Of a stretch of 64,000 bases of DNA, positions 5,885 through 32,960 are shown in pieces. Within the stretch, counting starts at the first letter, position 1. Each line of letters opens with the position of its first letter. The notes under the pieces were generated by a model. That model saw nothing but the letters and a program-made list of their open reading frames with translations. It did not search any database and was not told where the DNA came from. Position numbers and translations under genes: made by a program. Source of the stretch: Chloroflexota bacterium (GTDB taxonomy: Bacteria; Chloroflexota; Dehalococcoidia; JACPEP01); assembly GCA_016183425.1 (NCBI GenBank), contig JACPEP010000051.1:1-64000 (forward strand), in the 5' to 3' direction.

Positions 5885-7552
5885 TTGGAAGGAGAGAACA
5901 ACTACTGGACAAGTGTTTGGCAACGGCGACTCTCCCGACGCCAGACCCTGACATTGGCGGGCAAAGTGGGGATGGGGTTGGCGGGAGCCACCCTCCTGGG
6001 CTGCGCCGCCGCCCCCGCCCCCACCCAGGCACCATCAGCAGGAACCCCCAGGGTAACCCCGGCTGCCCAGCCCACCCCCACTGCTGCAAAGCCCGTGTAC
6101 GGGGGCACCCTGATTCACGCCATCGGCAGCAATATGACCGAAGACCCGGGCATCTCGATAGGCGGCGGGTACGACCAAGTGACGGTCTACCACTTATACA
6201 ATACCCTCCTCCACCTATCCAAAAAAATCACCCTTGAGCCGGAGTTGGCCCTCTCTTGGGAGAATCCGGATAAAACTACCTTTATATACAAGCTGAGGAA
6301 GGGGGTCAAGTTCCACGACGGAGCCGATTTCAATGCCCAGGCGGTAAAGGCCAACTTCGACCGCCTCATAGACAAGGACTTCACGGGCACCGCCGCTAGC
6401 GAAGCCCGGAACAACATCAAAGCCATGGAGGTAGTGGACGAAGCCACCGTGAAATTCACCATCAAGGCGACCAACCCGGAGTTCGCCGCCAACGTTCTGG
6501 CGGGGACTTCTGGGGGCATCGTCTCCCCTCAGGCCCCCGCCAAATCCAACAACGACTTGAGACAACGGGGGGTGGGCTCCGGCCCCTTCCAGGCAGCGGA
6601 GTGGTCCATGGACAGCCACATCACTATGAAGAAGTTCCCCGGCTACTGGGACACCGGGCTGCCCTATCTGGATCAGATAACCTGGAAGATCACTCCGGAC
6701 GGCACGGTGAGGATGACCACCCTCCGCACCGGCGATGTCCAGTTCATCATGGATGTGGAGGTAAAGGATATCGCCAACCTCCAGGCGGACCCCAACGTTA
6801 CCGTGGTGGTGGAGCCGGGGGTCAAACGCAACGTTGTCCACTTCAACATGCGCAAAGAGCCCTTCTCCAAAAAGGCGGCCCGCCAGGCGGTGGCTTACGC
6901 CGTGGATCGACAGGCCATCTCCGACGCGGTGTACAAGGGCATCTTCAAGCCAGCGGAGGGGATCTACCCTCCCACCTCCTGGGCCCACGACCCCACCATC
7001 AAGAACTACCCCTACGACCTCCAGAAAGCCAAAGAGAAGCTGGCCGAGGCGGGCTATCCCAACGGTTTCGAGTTCAAGGCCGTCGTCGCTTCCGCCCGAC
7101 CTGACGAAGTTCAGACATCGGAGATCATAAAGGACCAGTTAGCCAAGGTGGGCATCAAGATGACCTTTAGTATCCATGACCAGCCCACGGTACTGGATAT
7201 CTGGCAGAAGGACATTGAAAAAACCGATGCCATAGTCACTAGCGCCGGCCATGCCATGGAGCCCATTCGCCTCATCGACCGCTACTACACCAAGAACGGC
7301 TCCTACGCCAACATCAAGGTGGATTTCCCGGAGTTGGAAGCCCTGGTGGCCAAGGCCAAAGAAACCTACGACCTAGAGGAGCAGAGGCGGTATCTGAACC
7401 AGGCGGACCGTCTGGTCACGGAGAATGTTTGGGCAGAGTGGGCTTGGGTCTATGAGGCCAAGATCTTTGCCTTCCGCAAGAACGTCATGAACTACGAACA
7501 CGGCCCTCACCCCTTTCATGCTCGCTTCCGGAAAGTATGGTTAGCTAAATAG
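5885..7552 (+). CDS. ABC-type solute-binding lipoprotein, family 5 (second copy)
   Basis: A 555-residue SBP_bac_5 protein. It starts at TTG 5885, chosen because GAAAGGAGG lies just upstream and because the residues then align with the other copies: YW at 7-8, SRRQ at 17-20 and the lipobox LLGC with Cys40. The linker (CAAAPAPTQAPS...) is followed by the mature domain with FIYKLRKGVKFHDGA at about 130-145. A weak promoter-like pair (TTGGCG, 17 bases, TATCCT, 5786-5814) precedes it. A strong hairpin terminator follows at 7564. Ligand unknown. It lies next to the FAD oxidoreductase array and is likely to feed the same pathway. Confidence 0.92.
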   Translation: MEGENNYWTSVWQRRLSRRQTLTLAGKVGMGLAGATLLGCAAAPAPTQAPSAGTPRVTPAAQPTPTAAKPVYGGTLIHAIGSNMTEDPGISIGGGYDQVTVYHLYNTLLHLSKKITLEPELALSWENPDKTTFIYKLRKGVKFHDGADFNAQAVKANFDRLIDKDFTGTAASEARNNIKAMEVVDEATVKFTIKATNPEFAANVLAGTSGGIVSPQAPAKSNNDLRQRGVGSGPFQAAEWSMDSHITMKKFPGYWDTGLPYLDQITWKITPDGTVRMTTLRTGDVQFIMDVEVKDIANLQADPNVTVVVEPGVKRNVVHFNMRKEPFSKKAARQAVAYAVDRQAISDAVYKGIFKPAEGIYPPTSWAHDPTIKNYPYDLQKAKEKLAEAGYPNGFEFKAVVASARPDEVQTSEIIKDQLAKVGIKMTFSIHDQPTVLDIWQKDIEKTDAIVTSAGHAMEPIRLIDRYYTKNGSYANIKVDFPELEALVAKAKETYDLEEQRRYLNQADRLVTENVWAEWAWVYEAKIFAFRKNVMNYEHGPHPFHARFRKVWLAK

Positions 7553-31615: not shown

Positions 31616-31785
31616 AATACACAGTCTTGTGGCCAGGGATCGTCGGCGCCCTGTGGACGGCCGTCAAGCCAGGGCGATGGATAGTCCGCCTATAGTGAAG
31701 ACAGCCAACAGATTGAAGGCCCTTCCATGAGACGCAAAGTGGGAATAATCCCATGAGAGATGGCAATTAACAAAAGGTGGGTAAC

Positions 31786-32211
31786 ATGGAATCTCTTCTT
31801 CAGAGTGGTGAGTTGGCGAAACGGGCTCGGGTCAGTCCGCGTACCGTTCGCTACTACGACGAGCTGGGGCTATTGCCTCCCAGCCACGTTACCGAAGGCG
31901 GTATGCGCCTTTACACCCCCACCCAACTGACTCGCCTCCAGTTTATCCGCCAGATGCAGAAGGTGGGGTTATCCCTGGAGGACATAAAGGCGGCTCTGGG
32001 GGAACCGTACCAAGCATCGGGACGCCAGGAGCGGGTGGCACGGACGTTGAAATTGCTCCAGCTTCAGCAAGCCCACATCCAGGCCCAGATGGCCGAACTC
32101 CACCGATTGCAAAAGGAGATCGAAACCGCTCTGGAGACCATCATCGCCTGTTTCAGTTGCTACGAAGCAGAATGTCCCTCCAGTTGCCCCCAGGCAATTT
32201 GTCTACTATAG
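31786..32211 (+). CDS. MerR-family transcriptional regulator with a cysteine-rich tail
   Basis: A 141-residue regulator. The N-terminal winged helix reads GELAKRARVSPRTVRYYDEL, followed by GGMRLYT and the typical KVGLSLEDIKAAL. A long dimerisation helix leads to a tail with five cysteines (ACFSCYEAECPSSC...C), a possible metal or redox sensor. ATG 31786 is preferred to GTG 31777 for the spacing from AAAGGTGGG. By family, it should bind a dyad between -35 and -10 and activate by twisting DNA; the P1/P2 dyads are candidates. It is followed by the deiodinase-like gene. Confidence 0.9.
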   Translation: MESLLQSGELAKRARVSPRTVRYYDELGLLPPSHVTEGGMRLYTPTQLTRLQFIRQMQKVGLSLEDIKAALGEPYQASGRQERVARTLKLLQLQQAHIQAQMAELHRLQKEIETALETIIACFSCYEAECPSSCPQAICLL

Positions 32212-32309
32212 AAAGCGGCATAGAAAAAAGAGAGGAGGGTCGAAAGGGAGGATACTCTGGCCGATGGCGAAGATCCCTTTGAGTAGTGGCTAATTGAAAG
32301 GAGAAACTC

Positions 32310-32960
32310 GTGTTGAAGGTGGATGAATATAACTATGTCTCTTTGAGAAGGCCGGAGGAGTACGCCGAGCATGCCAAGCTCTATGCCCCCTTTCGGGAGA
32401 ACCTGAGGGCGGGGAGCAAGGCCCCCGACTTCACGGTGAAATCATTGGACGGCCAGGAGTTTTGTCTCTCCGACTACAAGAGGAAAAAGAACGTTGTCCT
32501 GGAGTTCGGCAGCGTCACCTGACCGCCCTTTGTGGCGAGGGTCTCGCCAATGGAGCAGCTCTACCAGGAATACAAAGACAAAGACTGCGAGTTTTTGGTC
32601 CTCTACACCCGGGAGGCCCACCCCAACGAAACCTACCCCCGTCACGTCTCCCATGAGCAGAAGCTTTCGTACGCACGCACCTGTCAGGAAAGATATGGCA
32701 TAACCCTTCTCCCGGTTCTTGTGGAAGATATTGATGGAGAGATTCATCAGGCCTATGGCTCCATGCCCAACATGGTCTACGTGGTTGACAAATCGGGGCT
32801 CATCGCCTATAAGGCGGCCTGGCTGGAGATGGATGAGCTGAGGTGCGTCCTGGAGAACCTGGTGTGGGCCGAGGCGCCCCGGCGGGCAGAGGAAAGGAGC
32901 AGCTACAAGGCCAAGTACTCTGAGATGCTGGTACGGCGTCGGATAAGCCTTGAGGAGTAA
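32310..32960 (+). CDS. Deiodinase-like selenoprotein (in-frame TGA read as selenocysteine)
   Basis: A 216-residue protein if the TGA at 32520-32522 is read as Sec71. GTG 32310 has AAAGGAGAAACTC in front. The sequence is a thioredoxin-fold redoxin (GSKAPDFTVKSLDG) containing LEFGSVT-Sec-PPFVARV, which is the signature around the active Sec of iodothyronine deiodinases (GSxT-Sec-P), followed by the family's LYTREAHPNE segment. Both halves are in one frame and both are conserved in type. A SECIS-like hairpin follows the TGA. Known eukaryotic relatives remove iodine from thyroid hormone; bacterial relatives have no proven substrate. The next gene is RdhA-like. Without selenocysteine insertion the product would stop at 70 residues. 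Confidence 0.9.
32520..32549 (+). promoter_or_regulatory. Selenocysteine TGA and bacterial SECIS-like hairpin
   Basis: The TGA at 32520-32522 is followed by a perfect 7-base-pair stem TGGCGAG (32533-32539) / CTCGCCA (32543-32549) with loop GGT starting 18 bases after the TGA. Bacterial SECIS elements have a short apical loop with a G in the first two positions about 16-37 bases after the UGA; this fits. It lies inside the coding sequence, as usual for bacteria. Confidence 0.8.

Follow-up and report, generated by a model that had tools for sequence, protein, structure and literature searches.

A probable deiodinase-family selenoprotein encoded next to a reductive dehalogenase-like gene in a Dehalococcoidia genome

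The window analysed here, a stretch of 64,000 nucleotides from a draft genome of a Chloroflexota bacterium of the class Dehalococcoidia (GCA_016183425.1, contig JACPEP010000051.1), contains a gene whose reading frame runs from a GTG start codon at 32310 to a TAA stop at 32958-32960. The frame is open on both sides of one in-frame TGA and has no other in-frame stop. Translation thus bore out the initial annotation, which had described a single frame broken solely by this TGA and a joined protein of 216 residues with selenocysteine (Sec, U) at position 71. In the read-through product, Sec71 lies in the context FGSVT-U71-PPF, and YTREAHPNE follows 30 residues further on. The features of the locus, together with two related genes elsewhere in the same genome (G000), are collected in Table 1.

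Table 1. Features of the selenoprotein locus and related genes of the same genome.
Feature	Position	Strand	Description and basis
MerR-family regulator, Cys-rich tail	31777..32211	+	Just upstream of the selenoprotein gene; PF13411, 76.9 bits
Shine-Dalgarno GGAG	32300..32303	+	6 nt upstream of the GTG start; direct sequence reading
Deiodinase-like selenoprotein gene (predicted)	32310..32960	+	216 codons and TAA, Sec at codon 71; translation with TGA as U, PF00837 match
In-frame TGA, predicted Sec71	32520..32522	+	Translation; TGA conserved among relatives
Bacterial SECIS hairpin	32533..32549	+	7-bp stem UGGCGAG/CUCGCCA, loop GGU at 32540-32542; recoding test (p = 0.002), covariation
EAH motif (Glu102-Ala103-His104)	32613..32621	+	Equivalent to DIO3 Glu200-His202; alignment to 4tr3 and relatives
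Cys125 codon, candidate resolving cysteine	32682..32684	+	Helix after the EAH loop; alignment of relatives
Reductive dehalogenase-like gene, 427 aa	32977..34260	+	16 nt past the selenoprotein stop, AAGGAGG ahead; TIGR02486
Second deiodinase-like gene	G000:C52:58478-58867 = L061:8482-8865	-	Decayed, with frameshifts and additional stops near the site where the TGA once stood
SelD gene with in-frame TGA (ARCAG-U-AAKFG)	G000:C34:35317-36237 (L060:7207-8172 and upstream)		

The joined protein falls within the family to which it had been provisionally assigned, scoring 75 bits on T4_deiodinase (PF00837), for which the cut-off is 27. Weaker matches were obtained to AhpC-TSA (PF00578, 49.7 bits) and Redoxin (PF08534, 42.3 bits), and the NCBIfam model NF038285 (deiodinase_rel) gave 105 bits, under its cut-off of 250. 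The top matches in a sequence search of the PDB were mouse DIO3 (4tr3, 8.6e-16) and then DIO2 (9h48, 8.6e-10). Homology shows the predicted product to have a thioredoxin fold. A structure prediction from three sequences reached a mean pLDDT of 56, with the active site below 50, and gave no usable Sec71-Cys125 distance; the fold search with this low-confidence model returned ResA-like thioredoxins and peroxiredoxins, i.e., the thioredoxin fold only. The likeness to TlpA/ResA thioredoxins and peroxiredoxins lies in the fold and in the PF00578 and PF08534 matches, whereas the window protein has Sec for the catalytic Cys, carries the EAH insert and lacks CxxC.

A 7-bp hairpin with a G-starting loop had been noted at the distance expected of a bacterial SECIS element, and we confirmed its presence, with the loop 17 nt after the UGA. 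In the model of bacterial SECIS elements, the loop has 3-9 nt and the stem 4-16 bp, with a G in the first two loop positions, a spacing of 16-37 nt and an energy of at most -7.5 kcal/mol (PMC13188914, Fig. 2); the hairpin lies within these limits, including those on spacing and loop G. Nine TGAs of the window are preceded by 70 or more open codons and followed by 140 or more; of these, that at 32520 alone is accompanied by a SECIS-like hairpin with an energy of -7.5 kcal/mol or lower, and a hairpin matching it in stability occurs at just 39 of the 1777 TGAs overall. Its stability exceeds that of 99.8% of 500 synonymous recodings of the same peptide (about 1 in 500 matches it). Compared with plain dinucleotide shuffles, the total folding energy of the 48-nt stretch was not significant (z = -0.73), and the synonymous-recoding and covariation tests were therefore used in its place. 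The covariation test drew on a gap-free alignment of 13 relatives, in which 90% of cells are paired and both sides have changed in six of the seven pairs. The covariation score of 0.516 (shuffled mean 0.206) was reached by none of 500 shuffles, and it fell to 0.09-0.23 when the partner was shifted by one to three columns. Nearly all Sec relatives have a SECIS-like hairpin, with 15 of 28 recoding p-values below 0.05, and of four non-Sec relatives three lack the hairpin and one has a weak one (-2.9 kcal/mol). The hairpin p-values combined by Fisher's method give approximately 1e-16, which is overstated because the relatives are not independent, and approximately 1e-11 after thinning to 15 representatives. 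The SECIS signal resides in the position, type and covariation of the hairpin, total folding energy alone being insufficient.

Scanning 393 genomes of the class for PF00837 placed 32 above the cut-off, and nearly all matches contain one TGA. Some 30 of the 393 genomes carry a homologue with the TGA, which stands at the same codon in those that were aligned. The initial annotation had considered that the TGA might be a sequencing artefact, which is contradicted by its recurrence in about 30 other genomes; the codon is not a read error. The expectation of Sec or Cys at this position in homologues also held, with Cys (TGC or TGT) in three relatives and a single exception with Thr (ACG). In the Thr form (L019, G002:C110 about 50-589) the frame is intact, and either the catalytic residue has been lost or the protein has a different function.

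Absence of selB or selC from the genome had been named as evidence that would speak against a selenoprotein. Both genes were found, as was selD; of the four genes to be looked for, only selA was not found. The tRNA-Sec scores 76.6 bits and is also called by ARAGORN, SelB reaches 354.8 bits with both winged-helix domains present, and SelD reaches 396.6 bits, its own in-frame TGA being accompanied by a SECIS-like hairpin of -12.0 kcal/mol. The SelD gene adjoins TusA- and DsrH-like genes, and a rhodanese gene lies close by. Neither TIGR00474 nor PF03841 matched a selA in the draft genome (95% complete, 52 contigs), and archaeal-type SepSecS had no match in four genomes, this one included. The missing selA is most simply read as a gap in the assembly, though this is not proven. 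The best SelA-like match, an aminotransferase class-V gene at C45:10468, was rejected as a SelA candidate; it is probably SufS, since a SufU-like gene adjoins it. Among nine TGA-form genomes tested, SelA was found in seven and not found in two, namely this genome and G136. SelB is present in 30 of 31 TGA-form genomes and in 234 of the remaining 362 (Fisher p = 8e-5, a value overstated by genome kinship), and the sole TGA-form genome without it (G259) is 73% complete.

Given that a covarying SECIS hairpin follows the UGA and that the genome has tRNA-Sec, SelB and SelD, we read the codon as Sec71. Comparative evidence shows Sec insertion at this predicted site (UGA 32520), and we consider it highly probable that the TGA is so read and that the product is a deiodinase-like selenoprotein of the PF00837 family. 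A pseudogene, a frame-broken gene or a sequencing error, in which the TGA would be a true stop giving two short proteins, could find some encouragement in the selA missing from the draft assembly and in the second, clearly decayed copy held by the same genome. Such an explanation is very improbable given a TGA shared by some 30 genomes, a hairpin that covaries, a frame intact both 5' and 3' of the TGA and a Sec-type SelD encoded in the same genome, and we discarded the pseudogene or read error on the strength of TGA conservation and hairpin covariation.

We also compared the predicted selenoprotein to the animal deiodinases, whose active-site residues have been named for DIO2 and DIO3 (PMC11592359; PMC9141512). 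In the alignment to 4tr3, the network of DIO3 has its counterparts in Ser68, Thr70, Sec71, Tyr99, Glu102, His104 and His112. Shared with DIO1-3 are the thioredoxin-type domain, FGS-x-T-Sec-PPF, Tyr-x-x-Glu-Ala-His and a second His. The deiodinase active-site signature claimed initially is thus only partly retained: EAH is present, but in the substrate loop ETY takes the place of DGW, and the D-loop is about nine residues shorter than in DIO1-3. Further differences from DIO3 are Val69 in place of the proximal Cys168 (Cys in DIO1 and DIO3, Ala in DIO2), the absence of a distal Cys at the place of Cys239, and Tyr109 and Pro153 for Trp207 and Phe258, respectively. The N-terminal membrane anchor of DIO1-3 is not evident here, the first 35 residues being largely polar (translation read by eye). 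The selenoprotein may work chemically like a deiodinase, though it falls short of several tested DIO features, and iodine removal is at most a candidate activity.

Bacterial deiodinase-like selenoproteins of PF00837 were first reported in 2005 from the Sargasso Sea (PMC1088965), and later reviews list them with the motif UxxC (PMC9312934; PMC13188914). The window gene adds a new member to this family. Like the known bacterial members, it has an active-site in-frame UGA, a SECIS element just downstream and Cys forms in other bacteria; it differs from them in its U-PPF with a Cys in a later helix, as against the reviewed UxxC, and in the adjoining reductive dehalogenase (RDH) gene. UxxC is absent from the window protein (UPPF), and many further Sec relatives of the class are also UPPF, so that UxxC is not a strict feature of the family. 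In the open-licence literature searched, we found no description of a bacterial class with PPF and a helix Cys, nor of the RDH neighbour.

A family tree built with the trait columns excluded split the proteins of the class into two sides. One comprises EAHxxDG proteins, and animal DIO2 and DIO3 group there on long branches, a placement to be taken with caution. The other comprises short-loop proteins, among which the window protein and a relative from G023 are early branches. Nearly all short-loop Sec proteins are Sec-PPC, whereas these two are Sec-PPF. A helix Cys, here Cys125, occurs in all aligned Sec-PPF relatives and in none of the alignable Sec-PPC relatives; by alignment and residue count it corresponds to Leu232 of DIO3. 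This pattern suggests that Sec-PPF with the helix Cys and Sec-PPC represent two alternative resolving cysteines. Because it rests on two to three changes on the tree, we treat the cysteine swap as a hypothesis rather than a tested correlation; an independent-contrast test had at most two independent pairs and no power. The contrast between PPC and PPF plus helix Cys provides a direct mutational handle on the resetting of Sec enzymes with this fold.

The neighbouring RDH-like protein scores 182.6 bits with TIGR02486 (cut-off 160.35) and contains two 4Fe-4S motifs, CxxCxxCxxxCP and CxxCxxxCP. By sequence, its nearest relatives in the PDB are NpRdhA (4ras, 5.2e-51) and PceA (4uqu, 9.2e-38). Aligned by eye, its Tyr219 lies at Tyr426 of NpRdhA and an Arg at Lys488, which we take to correspond to Arg305 of PceA, while the Arg552 region is uncertain. 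The likeness to NpRdhA, JtRdhA and PceA, which concerns the RDH-like gene only, thus consists of the two 4Fe-4S motifs, the corrinoid-domain region and the catalytic Tyr. Unlike catabolic RdhAs, the protein has no duplicated N-terminal domain or reductase domain, and in the comparison with NpRdhA, JtRdhA and PceA no twin-Arg signal was seen in it. Some sister genomes of the class contain dozens of RDH candidates.

The pairing of the two genes was met in this genome only. No close RDH stands beside the other deiodinase-like loci examined, the nearest other case being a distant RDH-like gene approximately 2 kb off on the opposite strand in G275, and no deiodinase-like neighbour accompanies the closest RDH relatives (48-53% identity). 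A conserved operon with the RDH, MerR or M48 peptidase genes was rejected, as none was found in the relatives examined. It is possible that the MerR-family gene regulates the selenoprotein gene. At the G023 locus, the selenoprotein gene is preceded by genes for a molybdopterin oxidoreductase and its Fe-S subunit. The decayed deiodinase-like copy has immediately upstream of it a gene for a small membrane protein with a DUF6789 match (L061:9009-9512), and a homologue of that gene (L071:1012-1491) occupies the same place beside a Cys-form relative in G136.

To our knowledge, no substrate has been established for bacterial deiodinase-like proteins. The product would be a soluble member of PF00837, a selenoenzyme with the thioredoxin fold. 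For it we propose a catalytic cycle, held with less certainty than the selenoprotein and family identity. The conserved residues suggest that the Sec71 selenolate would attack an electrophilic substrate, either at the halogen of an activated aromatic compound or at the oxygen of a peroxide, to give Se-X, and that the network of Ser68, Thr70, Tyr99, Glu102, His104 and His112 would pass a proton to the leaving group as in deiodinases. From the presence/absence pattern described above, Cys125 in the neighbouring helix would resolve Se-X, giving a selenenyl sulfide, after which the enzyme would be reset by a thioredoxin-type reductant. As to the type of substrate, judged from sequence, a peroxide is the leading though tentative candidate, followed by a halogenated aromatic, whose standing is raised because an RDH gene adjoins, with another, disulfide-type substrate the least likely of the three.

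Sec71 may simply reduce peroxides, with Cys125 resetting it as in two-Cys peroxiredoxins, in which case the likeness to deiodinases would reflect common descent only. We regard such a thiol peroxidase as a tentative possibility: the AhpC-TSA and Redoxin matches, the ResA-like thioredoxins and peroxiredoxins returned with the low-confidence model and the redox role proposed for bacterial deiodinase-like proteins in the 2005 discovery paper (PMC1088965) are consistent with it, but GSVT-U-PPF and EAH form the active-site arrangement of a deiodinase, and PF00837 outscores AhpC-TSA and Redoxin. Alternatively, the protein may be a dehalogenase, the selenoprotein and the RDH forming an operon that would remove I or Br from halogenated phenols, with the selenoenzyme taking the halogen as Se-X in the manner of animal deiodinases. 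The two genes share a strand, the gap is 16 nt and a ribosome-binding site precedes the second; the RDH match is above cut-off, with NpRdhA as best PDB relative and Tyr219 and the Arg at the Tyr426 and Lys488 positions; and the proton-relay residues of deiodinases are retained. Characterised catabolic RdhAs, moreover, prefer ortho-halogenated phenols, and JtRdhA also converts iodophenols (PMC10463259). Since neither the other deiodinase-like loci nor the closest RDH relatives repeat the pairing, and the long deiodinase D-loop and its Trp are absent, we nevertheless consider this unlikely. That the selenoenzyme and a corrinoid RDH act on the same halogenated phenols as a two-gene operon, with Cys125 replacing the missing resolving Cys residues, is decidedly doubtful; if true, bacteria would possess an equivalent of the deiodination known from animals.

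One family unites the deiodinases of animals with these bacterial proteins. A soluble, bench-sized member of it, with proton-relay residues and an RDH neighbour, offers a test case for whether halogen removal preceded thyroid hormone.

Several observations were made on relatives of the deiodinase-like selenoprotein. No relatives were found on phages, and among the matches listed one plasmid record, in Mycolicibacterium, is annotated as deiodinase-like. Several deiodinase-like copies each are present in G275 and G341, and in the latter two divergent Sec-PPC genes adjoin (L143:1-2982, G341:C20). A TlpA/ResA-like gene with an active-site in-frame TGA (KST-U-PAC; L040, G038:C8:16091-16282) is likely a separate selenoprotein. 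One relative (L091, the same as L025; G142:C129 about 6042-6584, minus strand) contains a second in-frame TGA, reading EAHPIDGW-TGA-LGKG where its neighbours have DGWWLGGG, with Trp at that position; this TGA may encode another Sec, may have arisen by mutation of a Trp codon to a stop, or may be erroneous.
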